Source: a virus
Virus record (IMG/VR): IMGVR_UViG_3300021373_003503
Coordinates: 1-24,104 of that record
DNA: 24,104 nt
Strand: one strand, 5' to 3'
Part shown: piece by piece, positions 2,051 through 24,104 of the stretch
How the letters are laid out: every line of letters begins with the position of its first letter
Numbering within the stretch: the first letter of the stretch is position 1
Made by a program: the position numbers and the translations under genes
Notes under the pieces: model-generated
What the model was told of the DNA's origin: nothing
What the model saw: only the letters and a program-made list of their open reading frames with translations
The model's database searches: none

Positions 2051-3022
2051 ATGATTTTTGAAGAACAAGTATCGCGTAAGCCTGACCATTATCCTTGGGC
2101 AGGAGAGTTTATCGAAGCAATGCACAACGGCTTCTGGACTGATAAAGAGTTCAGTTTTACGTCTGATTTGCAGGACTTTAACGTGATATTGAATGATCAA
2201 GAAAAAGAGATTATTGTGAGAACCCTCTCTGCAATCGGTCAGATTGAGGTTGCAGTTAAGAAGTTTTGGAGTAAGTTGGGTGACAATTTGCCACACCCAT
2301 CGTTTAGCGATTTAGGTTTCGTAATGGCTAATGTCGAAGTTATTCACAATAATGCGTATGAGAGGCTTTTAGAAGTCCTTGGTTTAGAGGAGGTTTTTGA
2401 AGAAAATCTGAAACTTGACTTTATTGAGGGACGAGTGAACTACCTTCGAAAGTACACCCATAAGTTTTACAAGAATAGTAAAAAGCAGTATGTTTATGCT
2501 CTTATTCTGTTCACCTTGTTTGTGGAGAATGTCTCTCTGTTTTCCCAGTTTTATGTAATCAACTGGTTTTCTCGTTACCGGAATGTTCTCAAAGATACCG
2601 ACCAACAGGTTAAATACACCCGTAACGAAGAAAATGTACACGCATTGGTTGGGATGAAGATCATCAATACTATCAGGCAAGAGCATCCTGAGTTGTTCGA
2701 TAAGGAGTTGGAGGACCGTATTCTTGACGAGGCTCAACAAGCTTTCAATGCTGAGAGTAAGATTGTCGATTGGATGATTAATGGTATTCAAGAGCAAGGT
2801 CTTAACGCTTCCATCTTGAAAGAGTTCATTAAGAACAGAATTAATGACTCGTTGCAAAAAATTGGCTTTAAACAAGCTTTCAATGTTGACAAAAATCTGC
2901 TGAAAGATACAATTTGGTTTGAAGAGGAGTTGCTAGGTAACAATGCTACCGATTTCTTCCATTCTCGACCTGTTGAATACTCAAAGAATTCGCAGACATT
3001 CAACGAAGAAGACTTGTTTTAA
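2051..3022 (+). CDS. nrdB: Class I ribonucleotide reductase, beta (radical-generating) subunit
   Basis: A 323-residue ferritin-like R2 subunit that makes the oxidant needed for ribonucleotide reduction by the alpha subunit. Visible metal ligands are E96-x-x-H99, E159 and E194-x-x-H197. The position of the usual first ligand, Asp (D84 in E. coli), is E66 here, by alignment of the helix containing EKEIIVRTLSAIGQIE. The radical tyrosine position (Y122 in E. coli) is Y103 in EVIHNNAY. A first-ligand Glu is a mark of the non-canonical classes Ic and, as I recall, Id. There is no N-terminal ATP-cone. The tail ends NEEDLF, the acidic C-terminus that docks on alpha. nrdA begins at the very next base after the stop. 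No Shine-Dalgarno precedes the start. Confidence 0.93.
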   Translation: MIFEEQVSRKPDHYPWAGEFIEAMHNGFWTDKEFSFTSDLQDFNVILNDQEKEIIVRTLSAIGQIEVAVKKFWSKLGDNLPHPSFSDLGFVMANVEVIHNNAYERLLEVLGLEEVFEENLKLDFIEGRVNYLRKYTHKFYKNSKKQYVYALILFTLFVENVSLFSQFYVINWFSRYRNVLKDTDQQVKYTRNEENVHALVGMKIINTIRQEHPELFDKELEDRILDEAQQAFNAESKIVDWMINGIQEQGLNASILKEFIKNRINDSLQKIGFKQAFNVDKNLLKDTIWFEEELLGNNATDFFHSRPVEYSKNSQTFNEEDLF

Positions 3023-6502: not shown

Positions 6503-7244
6503 TTCAGATATATCCGTAATTATTACAGGCCCAATAGACGATAGGACTTTTGAGGCTATAGATAGTTATCGCAGTCAGGGGTTTGAGGATATAATCGTGT
6601 CAACTTGGGAAGATGAGAATTTAGAATTACTTAATAAAACTAAACAAGAATATAAACTAGTTTTTAGTAAATACCCAAAAAACTTGAGCGAAATAAACAA
6701 TCAGGGTTGTCGCTTTTTTCAAGCTTTTACTACTTGGAAGGGGAGTAGGTTAGTCACAAATAAATATGTTATCAGGGCTAGGAGTGATGAACTCTACCCA
6801 GACCTTTCTAAGTTCGTGGGTAATATGAGAGATAATCCCAAAAAAGTTCATACTACAGATAATGGATTTTGGAAGATACATAAGTTTTGTTTTTCTTCTC
6901 ACCTGTTTGGTGGTGAAACTCAAATAATTAAGGAAGGCTGCTTCATGATGGTATTAAACGCAGAAAAAACTTTCTTAGGTAATCTACAATTAGATTACCC
7001 GGAGCAATGTTTCGGTTTTTATTTTTTGTTGGCTAATGGTTGTGATATAAGACTTAGTCCTTGGAAACAGGCATTCTACGAAAATGTATTCATAACCCCA
7101 TGTAAAGACTTGCCGGGGCATCTTCATTCTGGTCAGTCCTTTACCGGGTATAGGTTCAAGAGAAACACGGATTACCCTGATAATAGGCCAGACAGACATA
7201 AAAGAGAACAATTGTATCAATCATGTGAGGAATTTTTATGTTGA
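6495..7244 (+). CDS. WavE-like lipopolysaccharide glycosyltransferase
   Basis: A 249-residue protein with the pattern of the WavE lipopolysaccharide-synthesis family. A first strand SVIITGP (residues 7-13) is followed by DIIVSTWEDE (32-41), N69-Q70 near a hydrophobic helix, and YVIRARSDELYPD (91-103), in which the R-S-D core is the family's likely donor/metal site. WavE was named from the Vibrio cholerae core-oligosaccharide cluster; the reaction here is unproven. It overlaps the preceding transferase by 8 nt (ATGCATAA junction) and the neuB gene follows after a short gap, so it is in the same operon. No transmembrane segment is obvious. It is cytoplasmic or membrane-peripheral by inference. 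Confidence 0.6.
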   Translation: MHNSDISVIITGPIDDRTFEAIDSYRSQGFEDIIVSTWEDENLELLNKTKQEYKLVFSKYPKNLSEINNQGCRFFQAFTTWKGSRLVTNKYVIRARSDELYPDLSKFVGNMRDNPKKVHTTDNGFWKIHKFCFSSHLFGGETQIIKEGCFMMVLNAEKTFLGNLQLDYPEQCFGFYFLLANGCDIRLSPWKQAFYENVFITPCKDLPGHLHSGQSFTGYRFKRNTDYPDNRPDRHKREQLYQSCEEFLC

Positions 7245-7268
7245 CTTTCTTTTGAAAATAAATACTAT
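7241..7268 (+). promoter_or_regulatory. Candidate internal promoter before neuB
   Basis: TTGACT (7241-7246), a 16-bp spacer and TACTAT (7263-7268) precede the neuB ATG at 7276. Transcription would begin at or next to the ATG, so the message would be leaderless. The -10 box is poor, and this is one of only a few intergenic gaps in the operon. Low confidence. Confidence 0.28.
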
Positions 7269-7275
7269 TCTTAGT

Positions 7276-8109
7276 ATGGAAGAGACTTATATCATTTCGG
7301 AGATTGGCATTAATCACAACGGAGATCTAGATATAGCTAAGAAGCTCATTGATATTTCTGCTGCAGCTGGCTGCAATGCGGTCAAGTTTCAAAAAAGAAA
7401 TCCAGATGTTTGTGTTCCAGAACATCAAAAGTCTGTCATACGCGATACTCCTTGGGGAGAGATGACATATCTTGATTACAAATACAAGGTTGAGTTTGGC
7501 AAAGAGGAGTATGACGAGATTGACCGTTACTGTAAAGAGAAGGGTATAGCTTGGAGCGCTTCTCCTTGGGATTTAGACAGTTTAGAGTTCTTAAATCAAT
7601 ATGATATTCCATTTATCAAGATAGCTTCTGCCAGCATTACAGATAAAGAGCTTCTAAAGAAAACTTGTGAGACTGGTAAAAAAGTGATCATCTCTACAGG
7701 TATGAGTTCTGAAGAGGAGATTGATGAAGCTGTTGATATTCTGAAAGACAACGCTTCGGATTATGCAGTTTTGCACTGCAACTCGTCTTATCCCGCTCCA
7801 ATAGAAGAATTAAATCTTTCTTGTGTCAAAACTTTAAAAGATAAATACGGGTGTCAAGTTGGCTACAGTGGGCATGAATTCCGACTTGGCACTACAGTCG
7901 CTGCTGTTTATCTTGGGGCTACTATCATTGAGCGTCATGTAACTCTTGACAGGACTATGTGGGGTTCTGACCATATGGCTTCAGTTGAACCTCAAGGTCT
8001 TTTTAAACTTGTTAGTGGCGTTAGAGAGTTGGAACAATCTTTCGGAGATGGGGAAATTTCAGTTACAGAAACTGAAGCTGAAGTGAGAAAAAAACTTAGG
8101 AATAGTTAA
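7276..8109 (+). CDS. neuB: N-acetylneuraminate-type (nonulosonic acid) synthase, no SAF domain
   Basis: The enzyme condenses phosphoenolpyruvate with an N-acyl hexosamine (ManNAc or a related 6-deoxy sugar) to a nine-carbon nonulosonic acid. The start at 7276 gives 277 residues; the frame is open back to 7225, but those 17 residues overlap the previous gene and do not resemble the family. It begins YIISEIGINHNGDL, the family's signature opening, followed by VKFQKR, ISTGMSS, VLHCNSSYPAP, VGYSGH and IERHVTLDR, all TIM-barrel NeuB motifs. The usual NeuB (about 340-350 residues) has a C-terminal antifreeze-like SAF domain over the active site; here the chain stops after the barrel. The exact product (sialic, legionaminic or pseudaminic acid) cannot be read from the sequence. 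It overlaps the next gene by one base. Confidence 0.88.
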   Translation: MEETYIISEIGINHNGDLDIAKKLIDISAAAGCNAVKFQKRNPDVCVPEHQKSVIRDTPWGEMTYLDYKYKVEFGKEEYDEIDRYCKEKGIAWSASPWDLDSLEFLNQYDIPFIKIASASITDKELLKKTCETGKKVIISTGMSSEEEIDEAVDILKDNASDYAVLHCNSSYPAPIEELNLSCVKTLKDKYGCQVGYSGHEFRLGTTVAAVYLGATIIERHVTLDRTMWGSDHMASVEPQGLFKLVSGVRELEQSFGDGEISVTETEAEVRKKLRNS

Positions 8110-10508: not shown

Positions 10509-11262
10509 AGATAAAACTGATGCCTATTTCGTCTCTTCCGAAGATAGGTTTGTTGAAAGTGCCAGAGGGATAAGCTGGTTAGAACGTCAAAATATAAAAA
10601 AATCATCATTTAAATGCACTAGCAATTATATTTATGAGGATATAAAAGATTTTAATAAGTTTAAAAATTCTAAGATATTGGTTATTGGTGGTGGGCCATC
10701 GTCAAGTAGTTTGGAATTTGAACGAGAAGATTATGACTATATATTCTCTTGTAACCATTTTTTTAAATGCGAAAAATTCAAAGATATAAATCTGGATGTT
10801 TTGTTTGTTGGTAACGAAGTAAATACTTTTTCCATTGAATTCTCAGACTATTGTAAGAGGAGTTCTACTTATTTAGCTGCAGAAGATTTGAGCGATAGGT
10901 TGGCTCATTTATATTACTTAATTCATTATTTCCCTGAAAAAACTTTTTTATGTTCAAGTAGGTATCAAAGTAAATTCACGGGAACGGCTTCTAAAATGGT
11001 AATTTTTGCTTTAGAGCTGGGCGCAAGCCATGTGGACTTTATAGGTCTCGATGGGGTAGCTCCAGATTTTAAGTTTGGACAATTGGTGCCTCATGGATTT
11101 GAAGGGAAGAAGTTATTCAGAAAGAAAAAGATATCAGAATACCCAGATGTTATAAGGCATTATAAATATTTTGACGCTTACATCAGAGATTTTTACCCTA
11201 ACTGCAAGATAAACAATTTAGGGCGTTATAATAAATATAATTATTCTTATGAAGAACATTAG
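10486..11262 (+). CDS. DUF115/MptE-like protein, candidate nonulosonate transferase (copy 2)
   Basis: A 258-residue paralogue of the protein at 8109-8930. Shared blocks in the same order are ILVIGGGPSSSSL (residues 64-76; VLVIGGGPSSKTL in copy 1), FSCNHFFK (87-94), FVGNEVNT (107-114) and LGASHVDFIGLDG (178-190). Outside these blocks the two are quite different, so this is an old duplication or two separate acquisitions. As for copy 1, the family includes Maf-type nonulosonate transferases and a pterin pyrophosphokinase. The gene directly precedes a CMP-sugar synthetase, which would make the activated donor. It overlaps its neighbours by 23 and 14 nt. Confidence 0.62.
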   Translation: MKTWENCEDKTDAYFVSSEDRFVESARGISWLERQNIKKSSFKCTSNYIYEDIKDFNKFKNSKILVIGGGPSSSSLEFEREDYDYIFSCNHFFKCEKFKDINLDVLFVGNEVNTFSIEFSDYCKRSSTYLAAEDLSDRLAHLYYLIHYFPEKTFLCSSRYQSKFTGTASKMVIFALELGASHVDFIGLDGVAPDFKFGQLVPHGFEGKKLFRKKKISEYPDVIRHYKYFDAYIRDFYPNCKINNLGRYNKYNYSYEEH

Positions 11263-11932
11263 TGATATAGCTGTAATAGTGCAAGCTCGGTTAAATTCAG
11301 AGAGGGTCTCAAAGAAAATGACTAGATCATTTTGCGGGTCTAACCTTTTTGAAATAGGATTGCAAAAACTTTTAAAATCTACAATTATACCATCAAACAA
11401 TATCTTTGCTTCTGTTTATGAACAAGAGTTAATTGATATAGCTAATAACAATGGAGTTCAGGTTTACAAAAGGAGTTGCGATTCAGCAAACAATGATGAC
11501 TCTTTACAAAAAATTTACGAATGGCATGATAAACTTCCTTATAAACATGTTATAAAAGTTAATTTATGCTCGCCTCTTCTAAAAATAGAAACAATAGATT
11601 CTTTTGTTAAGACTTTTTTGAATCAAGAGGAAGACAACCTTTTCGGAGTAATCGAGCAAAAGGATTACTTCTGGAATAATAAGGGTAAGTTAATCACTCC
11701 TTGGCCTGAAGGCCAGACAATAATGAACACAAAAGCTGTTACTGAAACATACAAAGCTGCTCACGTTTTATATGCTTCTAGATTAGATCTAATATCTAAA
11801 AATATGTTTATGGGAGACTTCCAAAAAGAAGGGGGTATCAAACTTTACCCGATGGAAGAGTTAGAGTGCTTCGATATTGACTATGAGTGGCAGTTCAAAA
11901 CAGCAGAATTACTTTATGACAATATATGTTGA
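11249..11932 (+). CDS. CMP-nonulosonate synthetase-like cytidylyltransferase
   Basis: A 227-residue nucleotidyltransferase of the CMP-sugar synthetase type (NeuA/KdsB/SpsF group). It opens IAVIVQARLNSERVSKKM, the CTP-binding motif of the group, and carries VKVNLCSPLLK in the middle, resembling the family's L-x-P-T/S-x-P turn. Near the C-terminus CFDIDYEWQFKTAELL matches the metal-binding D-I-D then helix of NeuA. It would couple CTP to a nonulosonic acid made by the NeuB-like enzyme upstream. The first motif is closer to SpsF than to classical NeuA, so KDO or another CMP-sugar remains possible. It overlaps the previous gene by 14 nt and the HAD gene by 17 nt. Confidence 0.65.
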   Translation: MKNISDIAVIVQARLNSERVSKKMTRSFCGSNLFEIGLQKLLKSTIIPSNNIFASVYEQELIDIANNNGVQVYKRSCDSANNDDSLQKIYEWHDKLPYKHVIKVNLCSPLLKIETIDSFVKTFLNQEEDNLFGVIEQKDYFWNNKGKLITPWPEGQTIMNTKAVTETYKAAHVLYASRLDLISKNMFMGDFQKEGGIKLYPMEELECFDIDYEWQFKTAELLYDNIC

Positions 11933-12209
11933 TATAGATGAAACCATATTTATGACCCAAAATATGGATTATGAGAACAGCCAGCCATTTTTAGAACGGA
12001 TACAGAAAATTAATAAACTGTATGACGAAGGCCACACTATTGTATACTGGACAGCTAGAGGCTCTGGGTCTGGTAAAGACTGGTCAGAGGTGACTAAAGA
12101 ACAGTTTAAACGTTATGGTGTAAAACATCACACTTTAAAATTTGGCAAACCTGTGTATGATCTATTTATAGACGATAAGAATATTAACTCAGAAGTTTTT
12201 TTTAAATGA
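11916..12209 (+). CDS. Small HAD-family phosphatase
   Basis: A 97-residue minimal HAD hydrolase, counting from the ATG at 11916. The frame is open further upstream to 11877, but the family's first strand begins here (MTIYVDIDETIF). D6-x-D8-x-T10 is HAD motif I, with D6 the nucleophile. IVYWTARGS is motif II. KFGKPVYDLFIDDK supplies the motif III lysine and motif IV aspartates. There is no cap domain. Such small HADs occur in capsule and LPS clusters, where they remove phosphate from sugar phosphates. If the host pathway passes through a 9-phosphate nonulosonate, this could dephosphorylate it; that is only inference. It overlaps the upstream gene by 17 nt and the GDP-mannose dehydratase by 4 nt. 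Confidence 0.7.
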   Translation: MTIYVDIDETIFMTQNMDYENSQPFLERIQKINKLYDEGHTIVYWTARGSGSGKDWSEVTKEQFKRYGVKHHTLKFGKPVYDLFIDDKNINSEVFFK

Positions 12210-13234
12210 AGAAGGTGATCATTACAGGAGTGACAGGTCAAGATGGTAGCTTTATGGCTGATTACCTCTTGGAGAATACAGAGCATACCGTTGTGGCTGG
12301 CGTTCGTAGGTTGAGTGTAAAAAACCACCAGAATATAGCTCATCTGTTAGATAATCCTCGCTTTAAGCTTATTGACTTGGATGTTGCTGACCAAGCTAAT
12401 ACAGAGATAGTCATCGCTGAAGAGAAACCTGATTTTTTTATAAATTTTGCTGCTAATTCTTTTGTGGGTGTTAGCTGGAAGATGCCAGTTAATCATATGG
12501 AGACTAATGCTATGGCTGTTTTGTACCAGCTTGAGGCTATCCGTAAATATTGTCCCAAATGTCGATATTATAATGCTGGCTCCTCAGAGGAGTTTGGGGA
12601 CGTTCAATATTCTCCTCAGTCAGAACGTCACCCTTTACGCCCAAGAAGCCCTTATGGGGTCTCTAAGGCTAGTGCGAGGCATATGGTGAAGGTTTGGAGG
12701 GATTCCTATGATTTATTCGCTATTCAAGGTTGGCTATTTAATCATGAAGGAACTCGTCGTGGAGAGGAGTTTGTCACTCGTAAAATCACTAAGAATGTGG
12801 CTCGTATTAAAAATCAGTACATATTAAATCAATTTAAACCTCTTGAACTTGGGAATATTGATGCTAAAAGAGATTGGAGTGATTCAGAGGATTTCGTAGA
12901 GGGAATTTGGTTGATGTTGAACCAAGAAGAGCCTATTGAATATGTGCTGTCTTCTAATCAGACTTACACTATTAGAGAGTTTGTAGAGCAAGCGTTTAAC
13001 TTTGCTGGATTTGCGACTGATAAGTGCGAGTGGGTAGGAGAAGGTGTGGATGAAAAATATGTTCACGAAGGTAAAATTTTGATGAAGATAAATCCAGATT
13101 TTTATCGCCCTGCTGAAGTGGAACTTCTTTGGGGGGACTCTTCAAATGCCCGTAGGTTTCTAGGTTGGAAGCCTAAAACCGATTTCATAGGATTAGTGGG
13201 GAAAATGGTTGCACACGATCTCAAAGAATGGTAA
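12206..13234 (+). CDS. gmd: GDP-mannose 4,6-dehydratase
   Basis: A 342-residue short-chain dehydrogenase of the GMD family, converting GDP-D-mannose to GDP-4-keto-6-deoxy-D-mannose, precursor of GDP-fucose, GDP-rhamnose and GDP-perosamine. Residues 5-14 (IITGVTGQDG) are the NADP-binding glycine motif. Y150-x-x-x-K154 in SPYGVSKA plus the S126-S127-E128 segment in AGSSEEFG form the catalytic set. NHEGTRRGEEFVTRK is strongly GMD-specific. Length is near the family norm of about 340-370. No second-step enzyme (GDP-fucose synthase or reductase) is in the window, so the product must be finished by the host or by genes outside it. It is the last sugar gene; a 9-nt gap precedes the replication genes. 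Confidence 0.93.
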   Translation: MKKVIITGVTGQDGSFMADYLLENTEHTVVAGVRRLSVKNHQNIAHLLDNPRFKLIDLDVADQANTEIVIAEEKPDFFINFAANSFVGVSWKMPVNHMETNAMAVLYQLEAIRKYCPKCRYYNAGSSEEFGDVQYSPQSERHPLRPRSPYGVSKASARHMVKVWRDSYDLFAIQGWLFNHEGTRRGEEFVTRKITKNVARIKNQYILNQFKPLELGNIDAKRDWSDSEDFVEGIWLMLNQEEPIEYVLSSNQTYTIREFVEQAFNFAGFATDKCEWVGEGVDEKYVHEGKILMKINPDFYRPAEVELLWGDSSNARRFLGWKPKTDFIGLVGKMVAHDLKEW

Positions 13235-13243
13235 CTTAATCTC

Positions 13244-13687
13244 ATGCCAAGAGGTAAGAAGAAATGCCCTAGCTGCGAAATGTATGTCGCATCTGGGGTA
13301 TCTTCTTGTGATTGTGGCCACGTTTTCAAGAAAAAGAAGCTGGCTAAACCAAAGATAAAAAAAACTGATATTTTGAAAAGGCTTGTCGAAGAGCCACAAA
13401 AAAACAAGAGGGTATTCTTCTCAAGGGAAATGAAACTTCTGAACAACTTGGTCGATAAATATTCTCTAGAATTCATGAATGTCGTAAATTTTCATCGACA
13501 GTTTGATTCTTTAGCTTACTTAGTAAGCCCAAAACTGAAAGAGACGCTTGACAAAAAGTTTAGGGCATTTAATTATGTGGTAGATAAATCAAAATACCCA
13601 GAATATAATCTAGGTGAAAAAAGCGGTGAGGACAGATTTATAGAGAAGAAAAACAGAACGATAAAGGATTTTTTAACAGATGAGTAA
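13244..13687 (+). CDS. Zinc-ribbon protein of unknown function
   Basis: A 147-residue, strongly basic protein. The N-terminus is a small zinc ribbon with C8-x-x-C11 and C22-x-C24-G, resembling the C-P-x-C / C-x-C-G-x-x-F pattern of short zinc ribbons. A Lys-rich linker follows, then a helical segment (residues about 60-110). I do not recognise the rest. It stands first in the replication operon and overlaps uvsX by 8 nt (ATGAGTAA junction), so a DNA-related or transcription-linked role is plausible. No Shine-Dalgarno is seen. Confidence 0.6.
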   Translation: MPRGKKKCPSCEMYVASGVSSCDCGHVFKKKKLAKPKIKKTDILKRLVEEPQKNKRVFFSREMKLLNNLVDKYSLEFMNVVNFHRQFDSLAYLVSPKLKETLDKKFRAFNYVVDKSKYPEYNLGEKSGEDRFIEKKNRTIKDFLTDE

Positions 13688-14819
13688 AATGGCTAGTAAG
13701 AAGACGGTTGCAACGGTAGGTTCTAAAAGTTTATTGAATAACTTTTTAAAAAGCAATAAAGAAGATCATTTCAATTACGAAGATCAGATTAACTACAGGG
13801 TATCAAGTGGATCTTTAGAGTTTGATCATCACCTTGATGGAGGTTTTGGTCCGGGTTTACATAGGTTTGTTGGCATGAATGAGGGTGGAAAAACTTCAGC
13901 TTCCTTAGAAGTTATGAAGAACTTTTTAAAAATGCCTAAATCAAAGGCTGTTTACTTTAAAGCGGAGGGTAGGCTTTCTGATGAAATGATAAAGCGGTGC
14001 GGCGTTAAGTTTGTCTTTGATTATGAAGAATGGGAGGAGGGGACATGTTTTGTATTTGAGTCGAACATCTATGAGACATCAGTGGACTTGATGAGGCAAT
14101 TGGTATCTTCGAATGATGAGAAAAATAAATACTGTTTTGTTTTGGATTCCGTGGATGGTTTAATTAAAAAAGCGGATAATCAAAAGACGTTTGAAGACGC
14201 TGTTCAAGTGGCTGGGGGAGCGAATATCGCTGCCACTTTCATGAAGAAGATGTCCATCGCTCTTGCTAAAAGGGGTCATATGGCACTTTTTATCTCTCAA
14301 GTAAGAGCTGACATCAAGCTTGATCCATACTCTAAAGCTCCTGTTAGGCAGACGACTGCGACAGGCGGTAATGCTTTACTGCACTTCGCGAACTGGATCA
14401 TTGAATTCGAACCTAGATTTGGTGGAGATAATATATTGCTTAATCCATCAAACAAGAAAATGGACCCTAAGACCAACCCGGCAATTGGGCATTACGCTAA
14501 AGTTGTTGTTAAGAAGTCTCCAAATGAGAAGACTAATACTAGAATTTCTTATCCTATTCGTTATGGGAGGACTGGGGGCAACTCAATCTGGGTAGAGAAA
14601 GAGATCGTGGGAACTCTTGAGGCTTGGGAATTCATTAAAAAAGCTGGAGCTTGGATTTCAATAACAGAAGATTTTAGAGAAATTCTTGTTGAGGGAGGGT
14701 TTAATCTTCCTGAGAAAGTCCAAGGCGAGAATAAGTTATTTTCTTTGATTGAGGATGATCCGGCTCTTTGTCAATATTTAGTAGCCTACTTTAAGAAAAT
14801 GTTTAGCGGTGGAGAATGA
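13680..14819 (+). CDS. uvsX: RecA/UvsX-family recombinase
   Basis: A 379-residue strand-exchange ATPase. Walker A is G65-M-N-E-G-G70-K71-T72. The catalytic glutamate is E96 in VYFKAEGRL. Walker B is YCFVLDSVDGL (residues 151-161). The later segment LFISQVRADI matches the Q-containing strand of RecA before loop L2, which is followed by a Gly-rich TATGGNALLHFANW stretch. An Asn/Glu-rich N-terminal segment of about 50 residues precedes the core. In T4-type phages UvsX starts recombination-dependent replication and repairs breaks. Its closest kin by motif are phage UvsX/RecA proteins rather than host RecA. It overlaps genes on both sides (8 and 4 nt) in the replication operon. The gene symbol is used in the functional sense. 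Confidence 0.88.
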   Translation: MSKMASKKTVATVGSKSLLNNFLKSNKEDHFNYEDQINYRVSSGSLEFDHHLDGGFGPGLHRFVGMNEGGKTSASLEVMKNFLKMPKSKAVYFKAEGRLSDEMIKRCGVKFVFDYEEWEEGTCFVFESNIYETSVDLMRQLVSSNDEKNKYCFVLDSVDGLIKKADNQKTFEDAVQVAGGANIAATFMKKMSIALAKRGHMALFISQVRADIKLDPYSKAPVRQTTATGGNALLHFANWIIEFEPRFGGDNILLNPSNKKMDPKTNPAIGHYAKVVVKKSPNEKTNTRISYPIRYGRTGGNSIWVEKEIVGTLEAWEFIKKAGAWISITEDFREILVEGGFNLPEKVQGENKLFSLIEDDPALCQYLVAYFKKMFSGGE

Positions 14820-15223
14820 AGTTTTATTCTATAGATGGTAAACTCAGGAATCTTAAAAACCCTAGAAAATATCATATAGATTGGGATTCTTCTAGCAGGA
14901 GCAAATTCCAGAAAAACGTAAAAGATTTTCTTCATCCATATTGGGGGAACGATGTAGTTTTTGAAGAGTTTAGGATTGTTGGTACTCGATTGTCGCTTGA
15001 TTTTTACAACGCTAATAAAAAAATTGCTATTGAAGTCCAAGGCGCTCAGCATACAAAGTTTGTCAAGCATTTCCACAAGAATAGATACAAATTTTTAGAT
15101 CAACTGAAAAGGGATCAAAAAAAGCTCGACTTCTGTGACATAAACAATATAAAGCTCGTAGAGATATACCCGAATGATAAGGTGGACCAATCATTTTTTG
15201 AAAATCAAGACATTTATTTATGA
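14816..15223 (+). CDS. Small PD-(D/E)XK-type endonuclease
   Basis: A 135-residue putative nuclease. D62 in RLSLDFYN and E73-x-Q75 in KKIAIEVQGAQH form the D, E-x-Q core of a PD-(D/E)XK-like active site, in which the usual E-x-K lysine is replaced by Gln. HFHKNRYKFLDQLKRDQKKL and IKLVEIYP complete a pattern like that of Vsr/DUF559-type endonucleases. Its place between a recombinase and a helicase suggests DNA repair or junction cleavage rather than restriction. A homing-type nuclease is less likely because the gene is fully coupled by 4-nt overlaps on both sides. A GGAG lies very close to its start. Confidence 0.62.
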   Translation: MKFYSIDGKLRNLKNPRKYHIDWDSSSRSKFQKNVKDFLHPYWGNDVVFEEFRIVGTRLSLDFYNANKKIAIEVQGAQHTKFVKHFHKNRYKFLDQLKRDQKKLDFCDINNIKLVEIYPNDKVDQSFFENQDIYL

Positions 15224-15450
15224 GCGACGATAAAGAGGCTTTTTCCATACCTCAAGGATTTGTAGAAAAAATTTACGACATATCTGGGGATTCAGATAAA
15301 TATAAAGGCGTTATAATGGTTGTGGCTAATGAATTTGGAGACCCAATCGTATACAGTAAGTTTGATTCGTCTATTACAGAATTAGGTTTGACAAAAGCTT
15401 TGCATCAGTATTTACTTAAATTAGAAAAAGAATCTGGAGAAAGCTTATGA
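15220..15450 (+). CDS. Small conserved-context protein of unknown function
   Basis: A 76-residue protein that I do not recognise. The N-terminus is acidic and the middle has a short beta-like run (GVIMVVANEFGDPIVYSKF). An amphipathic C-terminal helix follows (LGLTKALHQYLLKLEKE). It has 4-nt ATGA overlaps with both neighbours, the nuclease upstream and the DnaB helicase downstream, which argues that it is a real gene. By position it could be a helicase-loading or helicase-regulating factor, but there is no motif evidence for that. Confidence 0.6.
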   Translation: MSDDKEAFSIPQGFVEKIYDISGDSDKYKGVIMVVANEFGDPIVYSKFDSSITELGLTKALHQYLLKLEKESGESL

Positions 15451-16985
15451 TTTATAGTTACGAACTAGAAAAGCAACTTTTAGCGGGGTTGTTGAAAGAT
15501 CCTCAATCTCTAATTGAGATCTCTAATTTTATTAGTCATAAAGATTTTTACTCTGAAACTTCTCTTTTACATGCGACCATATTCAGAGTAATCAAACAGT
15601 CTGTTGATGCTGGTGAGGAAGTAGATAATATTATTATAGCTCAAAGGGTTAATGAGGTAGGTCTAAGTTTTGAAGGTGATATAACTCCCGCTGAGTATAT
15701 TAAGTCCCTTTCTATGAGGTCTGTTCCGTCAGGGAACTTATTGAAGACTTGCAAGGAGGTAAAAAAATACTCAATCAGGAGGGAGATTGTAGAGTCTTCT
15801 GAAATGATAGCTAAGAAGATGAAGGCTATAGCTCCAGAGTCTTCTTATAGAGAGATTGTAGAAACCGCCGATCAGATCTATAACTCTAGAATAAATTTAT
15901 TTGATATCGGAAATGATGTTCCAGAAAATATCTATGATGATATGGAGCGTATGATAGAGGAGAGGGGCAACAATCCAATTGATGAGTTTGGAATGATGGG
16001 TCCACACAGTAAAGTCAACGATATCTATGGCTCTCTTTTACGCCCCGGTAACATCACTGTTATTGTGGCTCGATCTGGAGTGGGTAAGACTCAATTTTGT
16101 ATGGATTATGCTACAAAAGTAGCTTTGGAACACAACGTTCCGATTTTACATTTTGATAATGGCGAAATGAGTAAAGAAGAGCTAATTATGCGACAATGTG
16201 CGGCTCATTCTGGAGTTCCTATGCATTTATTGGAGAGTGGTAAATGGAGAAACGCTGGAGAGCAGGTTGTAGCTAAAGTAAGATCCGTCTGGTCTAAAGT
16301 TAAACATCTCAAATTTTACTACTACAATGTTGGCGGTATGGATGTTGACGTTATGATAAATACTCTTAAGAGGTTTTACTATTCTACCGTTGGTAGAGGT
16401 AATAAGATGGTATTTTCTTTTGACTATATAAAAACAACAAATAATTCTGCAGCTAACAAAAATGAGTGGCAGGTTGTTGGAGAAATGGTTGATAAGTTCA
16501 AAAGGTGTATCCAAAAAGAAATTCTTGAAGATGGAGATCCGGTAATCCCAATGATTACTTCTGTTCAGTCGAATAGGAGTGGCATCACCACAAACAGAAA
16601 CTCTCAAAACGTAATTGATGATGAGAGCATAGTGTCTCTTTCAGATAGAATCACTCAGTTTTGTTCTCATATGTTTATAATTAGGCGTAAGACTGAAGAT
16701 GAGATCCAGTTAGAGGGGGAGAGGTTTGGCACCCATAAAATGATTGGCGTTAAGTATAGAAGTCTTGGAAGAGATATAGCTGGTGCTATTGAGCCTGTCC
16801 AAGTTGAAGACTCTCTTCGTAAAAACTTTATAAATTTAAATTTTAACAATTTTAATATTTCGGAGCGAGGCGACTTAAGAGATATCGTCGCTGTTCAAAA
16901 TGGAGAAGCATTATTAGATGACAGTATACCAGATGCACCAGCAAGACAAGAAAGAGAAAGCGTCCCAGAGCTTGGTTCCTTCTGA
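15447..16985 (+). CDS. dnaB: DnaB-like replicative DNA helicase
   Basis: A 512-residue helicase of the DnaB family. Residues about 1-110 fit the all-helical N-terminal domain (YELEKQLLAGLLKDP opening). A linker follows, and a RecA-like motor starts near residue 185. Walker A is A208-R-S-G-V-G213-K214-T215. E240 in FDNGEM is the catalytic glutamate of motif H1a, and D326 in FSFDYIK is Walker B. VQSNR (about residue 370) matches the family's Q-L-N/S-R motif. The last 35 residues are acidic and probably disordered. It unwinds DNA ahead of the phage fork and should bind the primase encoded next. GGAG lies 7 nt before the ATG, one of the few good Shine-Dalgarno sequences here. The 3' end overlaps the primase by 68 nt. 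Confidence 0.92.
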   Translation: MIYSYELEKQLLAGLLKDPQSLIEISNFISHKDFYSETSLLHATIFRVIKQSVDAGEEVDNIIIAQRVNEVGLSFEGDITPAEYIKSLSMRSVPSGNLLKTCKEVKKYSIRREIVESSEMIAKKMKAIAPESSYREIVETADQIYNSRINLFDIGNDVPENIYDDMERMIEERGNNPIDEFGMMGPHSKVNDIYGSLLRPGNITVIVARSGVGKTQFCMDYATKVALEHNVPILHFDNGEMSKEELIMRQCAAHSGVPMHLLESGKWRNAGEQVVAKVRSVWSKVKHLKFYYYNVGGMDVDVMINTLKRFYYSTVGRGNKMVFSFDYIKTTNNSAANKNEWQVVGEMVDKFKRCIQKEILEDGDPVIPMITSVQSNRSGITTNRNSQNVIDDESIVSLSDRITQFCSHMFIIRRKTEDEIQLEGERFGTHKMIGVKYRSLGRDIAGAIEPVQVEDSLRKNFINLNFNNFNISERGDLRDIVAVQNGEALLDDSIPDAPARQERESVPELGSF

Positions 16986-18003
16986 AGAATTTGAGAGGGT
17001 TTTAGCTTCGATAGGCTATAAGCTTATTGATTGTGGCGATCATTGGAGATCTCAAGCTTTATACAGGAATGGGGATAATGCTACAGCTTTAAAGATTTAC
17101 AAAAATACTGGAGTATGGATGGATTTCGTTGAGCCTAAAGGGTCTCTACCTTTTGAGGCTTTAGTCAAAATGACTGTCGGAGATAATGAGAAAATTTCTG
17201 AAACTCTAAAGAATATCAAAAGCGATAAAGCTTACACAGCTTCAAGAGTAGATAAGATAGAAATGGAAAAATGTTACCCAGATGAGTGTTTAGATAAGTT
17301 GTTTCCTAATTATAAATTTTATAAAGATAAAGGAATTTCAGAACAGACGCAACTAGCTTTTAAAGTTGGTTTGGCTGGAGTGGGTAAGATGTATCGGAGA
17401 ATGGTGTTTCCAATATACAATGAAAATAAGCAGATTATTGGGTTCTCTGGGCGAAAGATAGACGATAATAATAATTATGCTAAGTGGAAGCATATAGGCA
17501 AAAAAAATACTTGGGTTTATCCGGCCCGTGTAGAAGGTAATGAATGTGGCTTAGAGATTGATAGGCTTAGCGAAGTTATACTGGTTGAGAGTATAGGTGA
17601 TGCTATGGCTCTGTATGACCAAGGTGTTAAAAATATCCTAGTGTTGTTTGGTTTATCTGCTAGCCCAAGTATCATCAATTACCTCTCCAGTAAAGTTTTA
17701 GATAATATTTACATCTCTACCAATAACGATTCTAACTCTTCTCAGAATAGGGGTTTAGTAGCTGCAATAAAAAACTATTTAAAATTAGCGAAACGTTTTG
17801 ATTTAAATGTCTTGACGATCAAACTACCACAAAATGGTAATGATTTTGGAGAAATGTATCAGAGTGGTTATAATATTAACAGCTGGCTTGATAGGCGTAT
17901 AGATCAACAAGAGCAGAAAGAGTATATTTGTAATTACGTCTCTAAGAATCCCCGGTTGTTTACTAAGGTTGAGAACGCTATGGCTAAGAAATTAAATGAT
18001 TGA
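16918..18003 (+). CDS. DNA primase, Toprim type, degenerate
   Basis: A 361-residue DnaG-like primase that would make RNA primers next to the DnaB helicase. Residues about 25-85 follow the outline of the N-terminal zinc-binding domain, ending VWMDFVEPKGSLPFEAL, but the Cys/His ligands are gone. MVFPIYNENKQIIGFSGRKI (162-181) is the basic segment before the Toprim domain. E224 in ILVESIGDAMAL is the Toprim glutamate. The usual D-x-D is N269-N270-D271 in ISTNNDSNS, so the first aspartate is lost, a form I recall from other marine phage primases. The first ATG lies 68 nt inside dnaB; an in-frame TTG at 16972 is an alternative start. It overlaps the next gene by 8 nt. Confidence 0.78.
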   Translation: MTVYQMHQQDKKEKASQSLVPSEEFERVLASIGYKLIDCGDHWRSQALYRNGDNATALKIYKNTGVWMDFVEPKGSLPFEALVKMTVGDNEKISETLKNIKSDKAYTASRVDKIEMEKCYPDECLDKLFPNYKFYKDKGISEQTQLAFKVGLAGVGKMYRRMVFPIYNENKQIIGFSGRKIDDNNNYAKWKHIGKKNTWVYPARVEGNECGLEIDRLSEVILVESIGDAMALYDQGVKNILVLFGLSASPSIINYLSSKVLDNIYISTNNDSNSSQNRGLVAAIKNYLKLAKRFDLNVLTIKLPQNGNDFGEMYQSGYNINSWLDRRIDQQEQKEYICNYVSKNPRLFTKVENAMAKKLND

Positions 18004-19021
18004 ACCTAAAACAGCTTTATCTGCAAGCAGAATCAAGACCGCTCAAGGATGCTCTTGGTTATACTGGTGTAAGTATAAACTTAAACTTCCAGATACCAGT
18101 AATGATGGGGCTAGGAGAGGCTCTATATGTCATTTGATTTTTGAAGTGCTTGGTGACCCACGCCACAGAAAACATTACGACAAAATTATGAAGGAGCAGG
18201 ATATTTTCTGTGTTCCTTGTGTTGAGCGTTTAGTGATGAAGCACGCTCGTCGGGAGGGTGTGGATGATGAAGACAATATCCAAATGATTAAAGAAATGAC
18301 TTTCAATGGTTTAAGTTATGATTTCTTTGGTTATGATTTGGATAAACCCACAGAAGAGCTTTCTGAGCAGGACTTCGACATAGTAAAAAATGATGGAAAT
18401 ATTGCTTACAGGATCAGAGGCTTTATTGATAAACTCTTTCTTTATAAGAAGCAGAAGTTCGCTTTGATCAGAGACTTTAAGACTAGTAAAGAGGTTTTTA
18501 AGGGCAAAGACGCTGAAGATAACATGCAGGATTTAATGTACAGCTTAGCTAGCCAACATTTATTTCCTGAATACAAAAACAAGCAGAGCGAATTTCTTTT
18601 TGTAAAATTTGATTTAGATCCTAACGCCAAGAAAAGTGGTGTTATGAGAATGCAGCCATTGAGTGATGAGGATCTTCTAGGCTTTGAAATGCAACTCACT
18701 GAGATACAGAAATACTTAGATAATTTTTCTGAACAGGATGCTGTGGCTAACATGGCGGCTGACAAAGGATTTCCATCAGACAGTTCTTTTAGTGGCCGAT
18801 TGCTTTGTGGTTTTGCAAAACAGAAAGGCGAATTGAAGAAAGATGGCAACATAAAATGGCATTGCTCCATGAAGTTTGATTTCTTCTACTATCTATTCAA
18901 AAATCCAGAGGGCCAAACTATAGGCTCTTGTTTTGAGGAAGATTTCTCTGAGGATATCGTACCAGAAGGTTGCACTTACGAAATACAATATTATAAGGGT
19001 TGCCCGTCTCATTGTTCTTGA
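17996..19021 (+). CDS. RecB/Cas4-like PD-(D/E)XK nuclease
   Basis: A 341-residue protein with the RecB-type nuclease pattern. The opening SASRIKTAQGCSWLYWC (residues 9-25) and R41-G-S-x-x-H46 match the family N-terminus. D145 in RGFIDKL, D160-x-K162 in LIRDFKTSK and Q178 in NMQDLMYSLA form the catalytic D / D-x-K / Q-x-x-x-Y set. C19, C25, C271 and C290 might bind an iron-sulfur cluster as in Cas4 and AddB, but the spacing is not the standard one. A role in end resection or recombination fits the neighbours. I see no other CRISPR genes, so a Cas4 function in adaptation is not supported. The PHP gene starts after about 30 nt. Confidence 0.75.
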   Translation: MIEPKTALSASRIKTAQGCSWLYWCKYKLKLPDTSNDGARRGSICHLIFEVLGDPRHRKHYDKIMKEQDIFCVPCVERLVMKHARREGVDDEDNIQMIKEMTFNGLSYDFFGYDLDKPTEELSEQDFDIVKNDGNIAYRIRGFIDKLFLYKKQKFALIRDFKTSKEVFKGKDAEDNMQDLMYSLASQHLFPEYKNKQSEFLFVKFDLDPNAKKSGVMRMQPLSDEDLLGFEMQLTEIQKYLDNFSEQDAVANMAADKGFPSDSSFSGRLLCGFAKQKGELKKDGNIKWHCSMKFDFFYYLFKNPEGQTIGSCFEEDFSEDIVPEGCTYEIQYYKGCPSHCS

Positions 19022-19054
19022 TTTTTTTGCAGATACCTGTAAACTGCAGGGGTG

Positions 19055-19798
19055 ATGACTCCTGTATTTAGATCTACATACTCTTATGGTAAAAGCATTT
19101 TGACTTTAGATGGACAGTCAAAAGAGTTTGGTGCGGATTCTCTAATTGAGATATGCCTTGATAATAATATTAAAGATGTGGTCTTGGTAGAAGACAATCT
19201 GACAAGCTTCATGAAAGCATTCAAGGCTTGTTCAAGCAGCGGCCTCAACTTGTATTATGGATTAAGGATTACTTTCTGCAATGATATGCGTGAAGAATCG
19301 AAGAGTTCTAATCATAAAAATATTATCTTCGCCAAGACTGACAAAGGATGTAAGCTTTTAAATAAAATTTACTCTTGCGCTTTCACGGAAGGGGATGGTC
19401 GAATAGATTATTCTACATTCAAGAATTATTGGGATTCAACATCATTGTCGTTTGTCGTGCCATTTTATGATAGTTATATATACGAAAATAATTTCCACCA
19501 AAAGAATTGCATTCCCGATTTAGATGGCTTAAATCCTGTGTTTTGGTCCGAGTGTAACGATTTGCCTTTTGACTATTTACTGGAAAGAAAGGTTAAAGAG
19601 GCTACAAAAAGAAAGCAATATAGGGTTGCTAAAGTAAAAACAATCTTGTATAAAGAGAAAAAGGACGTTGAAGCTCTTCAAACTTATAAGATTCTTACTA
19701 ATAGATCTTTTGGGAGGCCGTCAACACTTGCCAGTCCAGATTTAAACCATTTTGGCAGTCAAGAATTCTGTTTCGAAAGCTACCTTGAACAATCATGA
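19055..19798 (+). CDS. DNA polymerase III alpha PHP-domain protein (separate, metal site lost)
   Basis: About 247 residues resembling the N-terminal PHP domain of DnaE and nothing else. The family opening F-x-H-x-H-S-x-Y-S-x-L-D-G appears here as FRSTYSYGKSILTLDG; both metal-binding histidines are replaced (S and Y). The next metal motif (T-D-H-G) reads LVEDN. GLNLYYGLRITF stands for the family's G-x-x-P-I-x-G-x-E, IIFAKTDKGCKLLNKIYS for its L-L-A-x-x-x-x-G-Y-x-N-L, and VKTILYKEKKDVEAL for the segment before the palm. So the fold is probably kept but phosphoesterase activity lost. Start: ATG at 19055, with an in-frame GTG just before it at 19052; AGGGG sits only 2 nt upstream. It overlaps the exonuclease gene by 4 nt. 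Confidence 0.75.
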   Translation: MTPVFRSTYSYGKSILTLDGQSKEFGADSLIEICLDNNIKDVVLVEDNLTSFMKAFKACSSSGLNLYYGLRITFCNDMREESKSSNHKNIIFAKTDKGCKLLNKIYSCAFTEGDGRIDYSTFKNYWDSTSLSFVVPFYDSYIYENNFHQKNCIPDLDGLNPVFWSECNDLPFDYLLERKVKEATKRKQYRVAKVKTILYKEKKDVEALQTYKILTNRSFGRPSTLASPDLNHFGSQEFCFESYLEQS

Positions 19799-20427
19799 AC
19801 GATCAACTACTTAGATTTGATAAGAATCAAAAATATCTAGTATTAGATACTGAGACCGAAGGCTTGAACCTTGTCAAATCAAGGCCATACCAAGTCTCTT
19901 GGATTATTGCTCAAGGAGATAGGGTTCTAGAGAAGAATGATAGGTACATCTGGTGGGATGATCTTCAAATGTCAGAAGGGGCAGCTAGAATAACGAAGTT
20001 TAAATATGATTTTTATAAATCAAAAGCTGAAGACCTAGAGGACGTATGGAAAGATTTTTCTAAAGAGCTTTACAATCCAGAGTACAAAATCGTGGGGCAA
20101 AATCTTTTGGGGTTTGACGTTTACATGATAAATGTGTGGAGAAAGATTATGGGCTTGGCGTCAGATTATTCTTATGTTGACCGAATAATAGATACTCTGA
20201 GTCTGGCTAGAGCTATAGCTAAAGAAGATAAGCCTGACTTTGATAATTTTATGTGCTGGCAGTATGGTTGGAACAATTTTTTTCAAAGAGGTTTGAGGTT
20301 GGGGCAGCGCTCCTTACTTAAAAAATATAATATTCCACACGACGAAAATAGATTACATGATGCTCTTTACGACATCGAAATGAATTTTAAGGTTTTTAGA
20401 AAGCAGTTATACGATATAGAGCTATGA
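19795..20427 (+). CDS. DEDDh 3'-5' exonuclease (DnaQ/epsilon-like proofreader)
   Basis: A 210-residue exonuclease of the DnaQ family. Exo I is LVLDTETEGL (residues about 15-24) with the D-x-E pair. Exo II is VGQNLLGFDVYMI, carrying the family N-x-x-x-F-D. Exo III is RLHDALYDIEM with H-D-A-x-x-D, so it is the DEDDh subtype. All four acidic residues and the histidine are present and it should be active. It lies between the PHP gene and the polymerase core, with 4-nt overlaps on both sides, so proofreading for this polymerase is the obvious role. No C-terminal tail like that of E. coli epsilon is seen. Confidence 0.9.
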   Translation: MNDQLLRFDKNQKYLVLDTETEGLNLVKSRPYQVSWIIAQGDRVLEKNDRYIWWDDLQMSEGAARITKFKYDFYKSKAEDLEDVWKDFSKELYNPEYKIVGQNLLGFDVYMINVWRKIMGLASDYSYVDRIIDTLSLARAIAKEDKPDFDNFMCWQYGWNNFFQRGLRLGQRSLLKKYNIPHDENRLHDALYDIEMNFKVFRKQLYDIEL

Positions 20428-22964
20428 GATATAAAAATCCCTTTCCAGCAGGAGTAAAGTTGCCAGAGATTGTTGTGCCAAAAAGTGTCTTGGATGAGTT
20501 GGGGCTTGAAGATGGCAGTTCAAACAAACAGATCTTGTATGAGCTTTCTAGAAAAGGTTTAAGAGAGAAGGGCATTACGAAACTATCAAACAAAAAAGAA
20601 TACTATGATAGGGCCGTTATGGAGCTTGAGATTTTTGAGGAGTTAGGATTTATTGATTATATTCTCCTCAACTGGGATGTTCTTTACTTTTGTAAAAAGC
20701 AGGATATCCCAACAGGTGCTGGACGTGGATCTGCCGCAGGTTCATTAGTTCTGTATCTTTTAGGTGTAACAAACATTGACCCAATTGAATATGACTTATT
20801 TTTTGAGAGATTCGTGTCTAGAAGCAGAGCAAAACAAATTAAGCATGATGGTGAAGTTTTCCTTGACGGGTCTCTTCTTGCTGATGTTGATAATGATATC
20901 TCTTACAATCGCAGGAGCGAAGTTGTTAAATATATTGAGGAAAAATACAAAGGAAGAACATCAAAGATACTAACTTTAAACACTCTCAGTGGAAAGCTAT
21001 GCATGAAGGAGTGTGGGAAAATAGTGTCTGAGCTTAATGAGACCGACGTTAACCAAATAAGTGATAGTATCCCTAAACAGTTTGGTAAGGTCGCTAAATT
21101 AGAAGTCGCCTATGAAGATAGTGAATCATTTAAAAAACATGCAGACAATCATCCTAAAGCTTTTAAGATAGCTAGAAAGCTGGAGGGTTTAGTGAAGAAT
21201 ACTGGTGTTCACCCTTCAGGAATCTCAATTTGCTATTATCAGCAATCAGACATTATGCCCCTTCAAAAAACCAATGACGACTCTTTGGTCTCTGGTTATG
21301 ATATGGATGATGTAGCAAGCTTGAGCGTAAAGTTTGACATTCTTGGGCTTAGAACCTTATCTGTTGTCAATGATGTTTGCGAAGGGTTGGGTATAGATGT
21401 TAATAGTATAGATCCTCATGACCCTTTGATTTACACAGCGCTATCTAACTTGCAAAGTCCACAAGGGTTATTTCAGATTGAAGCAGATACAAACTTTAAA
21501 GTCTGCCAAAAAATCGCCCCGAGAAACCTTGAACAGCTTTCTGCTGTTGTGGCTATTGCTAGACCCGGAGCATTAGATTTCAAAGATAGGTATGCGGAAT
21601 ACGTTAAGACTGGAGAATCTCAGTCGGTACATGAATTCTTTGACTCTGTCTTGGATTACACGGGAGGCATCCCTCTTTATCAGGAGCAATTGATGAAAAT
21701 GGCTGTAAAAGTTGGGTTCAGTTTAGATGAATCAGAACAGCTTCGCAGGATTGTTGGTAAGAAGAAAGTAGATCAAATGCCAGCTTGGAAAGCTAAGATT
21801 AGTGAAAAAGTCAGTCAGCTTGAAAATGCAGATTCTGCTATAGCAGATGTTTTGTGGAAGGTCGCGGAAGACTCTGCGAACTACTCATTCAACAAATCTC
21901 ACTCTATTAGTTATGCGTATCTAGCGGCTATCACGGTTTATTTAAAATTTAAATATCCGCAAGAGTTCTTTTTAAGTTTGTTGAAGTTTGCTAAGTTTGA
22001 GCCTAATAGTCACGAAGAAATATCTAAAATATCTCAAGAGTTGATGCACTTTGATATCAAACTTTTACCCCCTGATTTAAACAAGTCAGATATAGATTTT
22101 AAAATAGAAGGTAAAAATATTAGATACGGTTTAAATTCAATCAAAGGGGTTTCTGAAAAGGTTCTAATAAACTTGTTGGAGTTCAGGGAGGAGGCTTTTC
22201 CGAATAAGTATAGTGTGTTTATAGCTGCTAAACAGGCGGGTTTAAATATTGGTGTTCTATCAGCTTTGATTCAAGCTGGGCTTCTAGATTCGTTTGTTAC
22301 TGCTAATAGATCTCATTTAGTTCTAGAGGCTCAGACTTTTAATATCCTTACAGACAGAGAAAAAAGAAACTTTATATCTTTGGGGGAAAAGCATGACTAT
22401 GACATATGTTGCTCTATAGATAAAGCTATTTCAGAGGAGTTAATTGCAGATGATAATAAAAGGATATTTGCAGATAGGAGAATTCAAACTATAAAAAAGA
22501 AAAGGTCGCCTTATGTAGAAATTTTCAAGAAAAATAAAAACTCCATAAAATATGCTAATTGGTATTTTGAAACCCAACTTTTAGGGTATAGCTACTCGTA
22601 TACTATTAGAGACATATTCAAGTATCCTGAGGATTACCAGTGTTCCGATTCTATAAAGATTGCTGGTGTTAGATCTGAAGTAAGATGTGTTGGAGTTTTA
22701 GTTGATATAACAAAGAGAACGAGCAGAAATGGCAATAAATATGCTAGGTTAGAGCTTCATGATGAGAAAGGCGTTATAAATGTGTTATTTATGGATAGTA
22801 ATAGGGAATCTCGCTTGACAGACTATTTAGACGCAGGTAATAAGTTACCTAATAAAGACGATGTCGTTATTGTGACAGGAACTAAGGGTGAAGACATAAT
22901 TTTTGCAAATACAATAAATACTTTAAAAGATAAAATTTACATGAAGCTTTCACAGGTAAAATAA
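20424..22964 (+). CDS. dnaE: DNA polymerase III alpha core (DnaE-type, lacking PHP)
   Basis: An 846-residue C-family DNA polymerase that begins at the palm. GAGRGSAAGSLVLYLLGV (residues 98-115) matches the DnaE fingers/palm signature. The catalytic aspartates are D154 and D156 in LLADVDNDIS (DFDVDF in E. coli), and D305 in VKFDILGLRTL. NTGVHPSG, GIPLYQEQLMK and YSFNKSHSISYAY are also DnaE blocks. Residues about 742-835 are a C-terminal OB-fold (IKIAGVRSEVR to DVVIVTGTKGE). There is an insert between the fingers and the catalytic loop (AKQIKHDGEVFLDG). E. coli DnaE is about 1160 residues; PHP gene plus this core give about 1090, so the chain seems split at the PHP-palm junction. It overlaps the exonuclease gene by 4 nt. 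Confidence 0.93.
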   Translation: MRYKNPFPAGVKLPEIVVPKSVLDELGLEDGSSNKQILYELSRKGLREKGITKLSNKKEYYDRAVMELEIFEELGFIDYILLNWDVLYFCKKQDIPTGAGRGSAAGSLVLYLLGVTNIDPIEYDLFFERFVSRSRAKQIKHDGEVFLDGSLLADVDNDISYNRRSEVVKYIEEKYKGRTSKILTLNTLSGKLCMKECGKIVSELNETDVNQISDSIPKQFGKVAKLEVAYEDSESFKKHADNHPKAFKIARKLEGLVKNTGVHPSGISICYYQQSDIMPLQKTNDDSLVSGYDMDDVASLSVKFDILGLRTLSVVNDVCEGLGIDVNSIDPHDPLIYTALSNLQSPQGLFQIEADTNFKVCQKIAPRNLEQLSAVVAIARPGALDFKDRYAEYVKTGESQSVHEFFDSVLDYTGGIPLYQEQLMKMAVKVGFSLDESEQLRRIVGKKKVDQMPAWKAKISEKVSQLENADSAIADVLWKVAEDSANYSFNKSHSISYAYLAAITVYLKFKYPQEFFLSLLKFAKFEPNSHEEISKISQELMHFDIKLLPPDLNKSDIDFKIEGKNIRYGLNSIKGVSEKVLINLLEFREEAFPNKYSVFIAAKQAGLNIGVLSALIQAGLLDSFVTANRSHLVLEAQTFNILTDREKRNFISLGEKHDYDICCSIDKAISEELIADDNKRIFADRRIQTIKKKRSPYVEIFKKNKNSIKYANWYFETQLLGYSYSYTIRDIFKYPEDYQCSDSIKIAGVRSEVRCVGVLVDITKRTSRNGNKYARLELHDEKGVINVLFMDSNRESRLTDYLDAGNKLPNKDDVVIVTGTKGEDIIFANTINTLKDKIYMKLSQVK

Positions 22965-22976
22965 GCGTAGTTATAT

Positions 22977-24104
22977 ATGATGTCTTTAACTGATTACAAT
23001 CTAACTCCAAAAGCTAAGAAGGCTATAAGGGATGCTAAACTCTTTGCGGCTTCAAATAGTCATAGCTTAATTAGAATTCCGCACTTGTTTTATGGATGCT
23101 TATGTAATCTTTCTGACAGGGTGGAGCTACTCTTTGAGAGTAGGGGTATAGAATATTCACCTAAGTATTATTTAAAAGATTTTAAAAGTTTTTGTAAAAG
23201 TAACAAAGATTATTTTTCAAGATCCAAAAATGAAAATGCTTGGCATGGCGAATTAAACAATATTATATCTGACGCTAAGTCGTTTGCTGATGATAACGAA
23301 GATTTCTTTGTTGGGGTTGATCATATAATGTATTGCATATTAAGGTCACCATTCTGCGAGGCTATACAATCAGATGTTTGCGATATCTTACACATGTCTG
23401 AAGTGCTTCTAGAATTAATTATAGACGCAAGTTTGGTTATTCCTAAATCTACTATTCTTGAATCTGAAAATCTTGACGAGGATAGTTTTATAGAGAAATT
23501 TAAAAAATCTCTTGATCAAAAGTCTCTAAATCAAGGCGGTGATAAATTTTTATCTGAATATTGTTTAAATCTGAACGAGCAAGTTCAACAAGAAAATCAA
23601 GTCCCTATAACATCTAGAGATGAAGAGATAGATAGCTTAATTGAGGTGTTATCTAAAAAAAATAAAAGTAATGCTATATTACTAGGTGATTCTGGAGTGG
23701 GGAAAACTGCAGTTGTTGAAGGGTTAGCTCAAAAAATAATTAAAGATGAAGTTCCGGCTCATATCGGTATATGCACTGTATATAGTGTTGATATAGCTTC
23801 TATGGTTGCAGGGAGTCAATACAGGGGCCAGTTTGAAGAGCGGTTTAAAGGTTTATTAAAAGAGGTTGAAGGTCGTCCTGAAGTTATACTATTTATTGAT
23901 GAAATCCATACTTTGATGGGTGCTGGCAATTCAAGTGATAATGGTATAGACGCTTCAAACATGCTTAAGCCTGCGCTAGCTAGAGGAGAAGTTAAATGCA
24001 TAGGGGCGACCACTTTTAAGGAATATGAGAGGTCTTTTAGTAAAGATCCCGCACTAAAGAGGAGGTTTGACAGGGTGCAAGTTGAAGAGCCGACAAAAGA
24101 ACAA
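22977..24104 (+). CDS. Clp/Hsp100 AAA+ unfoldase (partial, C-terminus cut by window edge)
   Basis: The frame is open from ATG-ATG at 22977 to the right edge (376 residues visible). Residues about 1-155 are helical and resemble a Clp N-domain, in two weak repeats. The AAA+ module follows: Walker A G237-D-S-G-V-G-K243-T244, pore-loop Y282 in AGSQYRGQFEER, Walker B VILFIDEIH (D308, E309), and RRFDRV near the arginine-finger region. This is a ClpA/ClpB/ClpC-type first ATPase domain that pulls protein substrates apart. Whether it pairs with ClpP depends on a tripeptide loop and second domain that lie beyond the edge. Its N-domain looks unlike the standard host form. It follows dnaE by 12 nt and is probably in the same operon. 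Confidence 0.88.
   Translation, partial: MMSLTDYNLTPKAKKAIRDAKLFAASNSHSLIRIPHLFYGCLCNLSDRVELLFESRGIEYSPKYYLKDFKSFCKSNKDYFSRSKNENAWHGELNNIISDAKSFADDNEDFFVGVDHIMYCILRSPFCEAIQSDVCDILHMSEVLLELIIDASLVIPKSTILESENLDEDSFIEKFKKSLDQKSLNQGGDKFLSEYCLNLNEQVQQENQVPITSRDEEIDSLIEVLSKKNKSNAILLGDSGVGKTAVVEGLAQKIIKDEVPAHIGICTVYSVDIASMVAGSQYRGQFEERFKGLLKEVEGRPEVILFIDEIHTLMGAGNSSDNGIDASNMLKPALARGEVKCIGATTFKEYERSFSKDPALKRRFDRVQVEEPTKEQ

Follow-up and report, generated by a model that had tools for sequence, protein, structure and literature searches.

It has long been asked why a PHP domain, often an inactive one, is part of bacterial replicases. In Escherichia coli this domain is degenerate, with five of its nine metal ligands altered (PMC5636811), and it binds epsilon (PMC3919608); it also stabilises the polymerase, as reported by Barros 2013 in the form in which PMC5636811 cites that work. 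PolC carries its nuclease as an insertion within the PHP domain and has an N-terminal OB-fold (PMC3919608). But does the PHP domain have to be part of the polymerase chain? In cells and in most other phages PHP and core are one chain, whereas in the viral locus described here they are separate proteins. The window, by which we mean the whole stretch analysed (24,104 nucleotides, positions 1 to 24,104 of IMG/VR virus record IMGVR_UViG_3300021373_003503), carries the consecutive genes PHP, EXO and POL. This locus probably encodes the main replicase of a phage lineage whose members are large and uncultured: a DnaE-type enzyme made of three non-covalent chains, one of them a dead PHP. Its features are as follows:

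19055..19798, + strand, PHP subunit, 247 amino acids (aa), predicted whole DnaE-type PHP domain, metal site lost
19795..19798, + strand, PHP-EXO overlap, an ATGA stop/start read in the sequence
19795..20427, + strand, EXO, 210 aa, DEDDh 3'-5' exonuclease, predicted proofreader
20424..20427, + strand, EXO-POL overlap, an ATGA stop/start read in the sequence
20424..22964, + strand, POL, 846 aa, DnaE-type core with palm, thumb, fingers, HhH and C-terminal OB

All three open reading frames (ORFs) are intact in the ORF list of the window. The PHP ORF, ending at 19798, has two candidate starts, GTG at 19052 or ATG at 19055; its homologues start MIPLFKS, which makes 19055 the likely one. What is this first protein? 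By sequence the PHP assignment is weak: the Pfam PHP match (6.8e-5) lies under the Pfam cutoff, and the protein matches the N-terminal part of the phage-polymerase profile phrog_405 (1.3e-7), of which POL matches positions 328-1081. Its AlphaFold (AF2) model has a predicted local distance difference test (pLDDT) score of 84.6, and the top 18 matches of this model in the PDB are all PHP domains of DnaE-type Pol III alpha, including those of E. coli, Thermus and mycobacteria (E 4e-10 to 2e-6, TMq 0.63-0.74), with DnaE structures well ahead of PolC. By predicted fold, then, the 19055-19798 protein is a complete DnaE PHP domain. Aligned with fused DnaE, the protein covers the PHP domain to its end, and POL starts a little ahead of the palm; the break therefore falls at a domain boundary. 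Measured against the nine metal ligands of an active PHP reference (HHDHEH[C/H]DH), eight are absent and the ninth position has Glu for Asp in all 137 distinct homologues; with at least eight of nine missing throughout, an active PHP nuclease is rejected. The ratio of nonsynonymous to synonymous substitution (dN/dS) is 0.062 against the relative L001 and 0.10-0.15 in other pairs with measurable dS, where dS exceeds 1 in most pairs and is saturated in several; on these sequence comparisons the gene is under purifying selection. The loss of ligands and the low dN/dS together indicate a PHP protein that is maintained but metal-free.

The other two proteins have kept their active sites. EXO matches RNase_T in Pfam (2.3e-11) and phrog_192, 'DNA polymerase exonuclease subunit' (3.6e-18), and its active-site residues D18, E20, D108, H188 and D193 are present in 142 of 142 homologues. 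POL matches DNA_pol3_alpha (PF07733, 1.4e-56) and the finger domain (PF17657, 6.9e-28), then HHH_6 at residues 545-630 (8.5e-17) and OB at 755-820 (3.2e-4, under the Pfam cutoff). The OB thus lies C-terminal to (HhH)2, with nothing further after it, and POL has no PHP: the catalytic module is whole in one chain, and the PHP is not part of that chain. In profile searches POL matches Taq DnaE at 3.4e-105 versus 1.4e-6 for PolC. Its catalytic aspartates 154, 156 and 305 (846-aa numbering; 152, 154 and 303 in the numbering trimmed to the hidden Markov model, which runs two lower than the full protein) are kept in all 143 homologues. Classified by these matches, POL is a family C core of the DnaE type. 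That the PHP metal ligands are lost while the DEDDh residues and the polymerase aspartates are invariant suggests a clean division of labour.

How general is this arrangement? Relatives were gathered by three POL scans of IMG/VR and one of genome contigs, taking the best 80 matches per scan. PHP, EXO and POL occur together in 228 loci, 154 of them distinct by sequence, and in every one of these 154 the order is PHP, EXO, POL on one strand, more than chance would give. PHP is a separate gene in each member with enough upstream DNA; the 12 viral loci that lack it are all truncated by the end of their contig, and among the related loci gathered there was no PHP-POL fusion. Both junctions are contiguous in 87 of the 154. 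Elsewhere other genes intervene (for example L093:4258-5211 and L102:4809-5360): the PHP-EXO gap may hold IMPDH/GMP-reductase-like or SET-domain genes, and the EXO-POL gap cupin, FkbM methyltransferase or LAGLIDADG genes. Such unrelated genes exclude RNA splicing or frameshifting back into one chain. A sequence-only reading of the window had described three separate genes with 4-nucleotide overlaps, a PHP-family protein at 19055-19798 and a DnaE-like core with a C-terminal OB-fold, had argued against a sequencing frameshift, and had suggested looking for the same order in other phages. The ORFs and their ATGA junctions are as it described them, the phrog_405 match and the DnaE PHP fold leave the family membership unrefuted, the Taq DnaE match and the OB after HHH_6 bear out the core, and the order recurs as just given; a frameshift or misassembly is rejected, since 154 distinct sequences share the separate genes and a whole gene lies between PHP and POL.

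A tree of the core, covering DnaE-type sequences (29 split representatives and 14 fused forms), places all split representatives in a single clade on a long stem, with full support in the Shimodaira-Hasegawa-like approximate likelihood ratio test (SH-aLRT 100), and the fused forms outside it. Because several fused rows are long branches, the order of the fused forms is uncertain, and our claim is restricted to the unity of the split clade. Walking outward from the window, split forms continue down to ~52% identity, after which, among the best 80 matches per scan, only fused forms appear, at <= ~33%. Isolate phages are at most ~33% identical; PHP and EXO had no tblastn match among them, and the terminase and UvsX have remote matches among isolates, at about 21-27% identity. 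The lineage with the three-gene replicase is widespread; its phages are large, uncultured and probably aquatic.

The locus shares much with bacterial DnaE plus epsilon: the core sequence, the order of palm, fingers, HhH and OB, the PHP fold and a separate DEDDh nuclease. Unlike in bacterial DnaE, the PHP has its own gene and has lost all or all but one of its ligands, nothing follows the OB, and PHP and core are parted by the EXO gene. Split phage polymerases are already known, and several come close. In group 2.2 jumbo phages Pol III alpha is likewise spread over separate genes (Iyer et al. 2021, PMC7824862), but there the cut lies inside the catalytic module, the genes are distant, other Pol III domains are missing and a family B polymerase is present (PMC7824862); in the present locus the cut falls at the boundary of PHP and palm, the genes are clustered and 12 large contigs have no PF00136. 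The marine Cellulophaga phage phiST also has two adjacent Pol III alpha genes, gp044 and gp045, with a DEDDh gene nearby; its cut, however, is inside the NTPase/palm, gp044 holding the PHP and the first third of PF07733 and gp045 the rest, and no nuclease gene separates the two. In Pbunavirus E79 and Wifcevirus WFH a DEDDh gene directly adjoins dnaE, as here, but there a single chain holds PHP and core, with the nuclease upstream of both. Aeromonas phages 25 and 44RR, with gp43A and gp43B, have a split replicase too, although it is a family B polymerase of unrelated fold in two chains. The two parts of the phage 25 enzyme co-purify and are active (PMC2988022), so split phage replicases can assemble. 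A cut at the PHP/palm boundary appears undescribed: no account of such a split with a nuclease gene between was found in the literature, in which few subscription journals were covered. The present locus would add one more cut point to the split phage replicases.

How might the three chains work together? The fixation of a dead PHP gene next to an active nuclease and a core devoid of PHP suggests that the enzyme is non-covalent, PHP serving as scaffold for the core and as dock for the nuclease. The chains would be made together, with their translation coupled at the gene overlaps, and would bind one another non-covalently. PHP, catalytically dead, would take the place that the covalent domain has in DnaE, steadying palm and thumb, and would dock EXO near the primer end, with EXO acting as the proofreading nuclease and POL as the polymerase core. 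A self-assembling three-part enzyme, a possibility the sequence-only reading had raised, is most likely, as the reading that fits best. We infer physical assembly and activity, a part for PHP as scaffold and as dock for the nuclease, and the main-replicase role; and we lean, with some reserve, towards an obligate three-subunit family C replicase throughout the lineage, in which a free dead PHP adapts EXO to POL in trans. If this is true, covalent attachment is dispensable for the PHP domain, which all bacterial replicases have. A natural, separate, dead PHP can moreover be omitted, swapped or titrated, which would give access to its role in folding, proofreading and fidelity.

Some observations weigh against this proposal. 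EXO stops at the end of the nuclease fold, and the C-terminal tail of E. coli epsilon seems to be missing. It is through this tail that epsilon binds PHP, so docking of EXO to PHP would have to differ. The structure model of POL is poor (pLDDT 67, predicted TM-score (pTM) 0.52), and interfaces are not readable from it. Searches of the large contigs for a sliding clamp with PF02768 and PF02916 were empty; the clamp may have diverged, or the host clamp may be used. Clamp-loader-like AAA+ ORFs are present in nearly all 12 large contigs (e.g. G018:183094-183786). Finally, all contigs are possible fragments, so that the lack of another polymerase is not proven.

Could the PHP protein have left the polymerase for another job, as a regulator or as a scaffold for another replication protein, with the core working PHP-less? 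The PHP diverges faster than the core, other genes often part it from EXO, and the PolX2 group of the X family has no PHP at all (PMC12926913). We nevertheless regard this as unlikely, because no member with sufficient upstream DNA lacks PHP, which always comes first in the set and has kept a DnaE-specific PHP fold, and because a scaffold role is the simplest for a protein whose own active site is lost. Or is the three-chain enzyme an accessory or repair polymerase, the phage genome being copied by another? In one group of jumbo phages a family B polymerase does accompany a split minimal Pol III alpha (Iyer 2021, PMC7824862), and the contigs are fragments. Against this, each of 12 contigs of 139-211 kb has one DnaE core, and none of these possibly incomplete contigs has a family A or B polymerase (PF00136 included), which supports the main-replicase role; the helicase, primase and UvsX genes adjoining PHP-EXO-POL count for it as well. 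An accessory role is thus improbable.

There is very little chance that split inteins or RNA processing rejoin the pieces into one chain and so yield an ordinary mature enzyme. Phages are known to have fractured genes with split inteins (Dassa 2009, as cited in PMC6892783), the DnaE gene of Alicyclobacillus phage KKP_3916 is in pieces, and the relative L175 does hold a split intein inside POL; but neither the PHP nor the POL of the window matches an intein family in Pfam, a complete gene, EXO, lies between the two and overlaps both, and in relatives the same gaps are occupied by unrelated genes, so that intron or intein rejoining at the window junctions is rejected.

The sequence-only reading had also drawn a parallel with PolC and wondered whether the locus is a snapshot of how domain insertion arises. 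The parallel stands for the order of PHP, exonuclease and core along the DNA and goes no further. Unlike in PolC, one chain with its nuclease inside the PHP, the PHP here is complete to its C-terminal end before EXO begins, the OB is C-terminal, and the core matches PolC at just 1.4e-6. The snapshot idea found no support, because no intermediate, fused-to-split or DnaE-to-PolC, appeared among the best 80 matches per scan, where one could be missed. A relic or intermediate on the way to PolC, with an exonuclease captured between PHP and core, is accordingly most doubtful: the gene order and the best solved-structure sequence match of EXO, a PolC-type polymerase nuclease domain (1.1e-6), speak for it, but DnaQ and E. 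coli epsilon match EXO too, so this match is not specific, the PHP is uninterrupted and the split forms group together in one clade, on a long stem. Kinship with PolC is rejected on the DnaE-type core and PHP fold, the split clade and the differing architecture of PolC (PMC3919608).

Upstream of PHP, replication genes occupy 13680..19021 on the + strand, mostly colinear in the 140-kb relative G001; those with Pfam and PHROG matches start as follows:

13680, + strand, UvsX/RecA-like gene
14816, + strand, homing-endonuclease-like ORF
15447, + strand, DnaB-like helicase
16918, + strand, primase
17996, + strand, PD-(D/E)XK nuclease

Directly 3' of POL, at 22977-24104, lies a ClpB/ClpA-like ATPase gene (phrog_4871, 3.8e-78), and the 140-kb relative has a counterpart in the corresponding position. 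Further upstream, small and large subunit genes of ribonucleotide reductase lie within 2051-4669, and the NeuB-like, cytidylyltransferase and GDP-mannose dehydratase genes at 7225-8109, 11249-11932 and 12206-13234 are perhaps a phage-borne sugar cassette of sialic-acid-like type. Rfam and tRNA scans of the window gave no matches. Two variations of POL were seen among the relatives. In L134:5251-8583 (same contig as L205) and L163:216-3263 the N-terminus of POL is fused in frame to a further 170-260 aa, an extension that by eye looks like a PD-(D/E)XK nuclease (EVK motif) and has no Pfam match. In L175:6001-8985 (CALFSW010000260.1) POL is interrupted by a natural split intein (SFNK|C... / ...VTSN|SHSIS), so that the polymerase of this relative is encoded by four genes.

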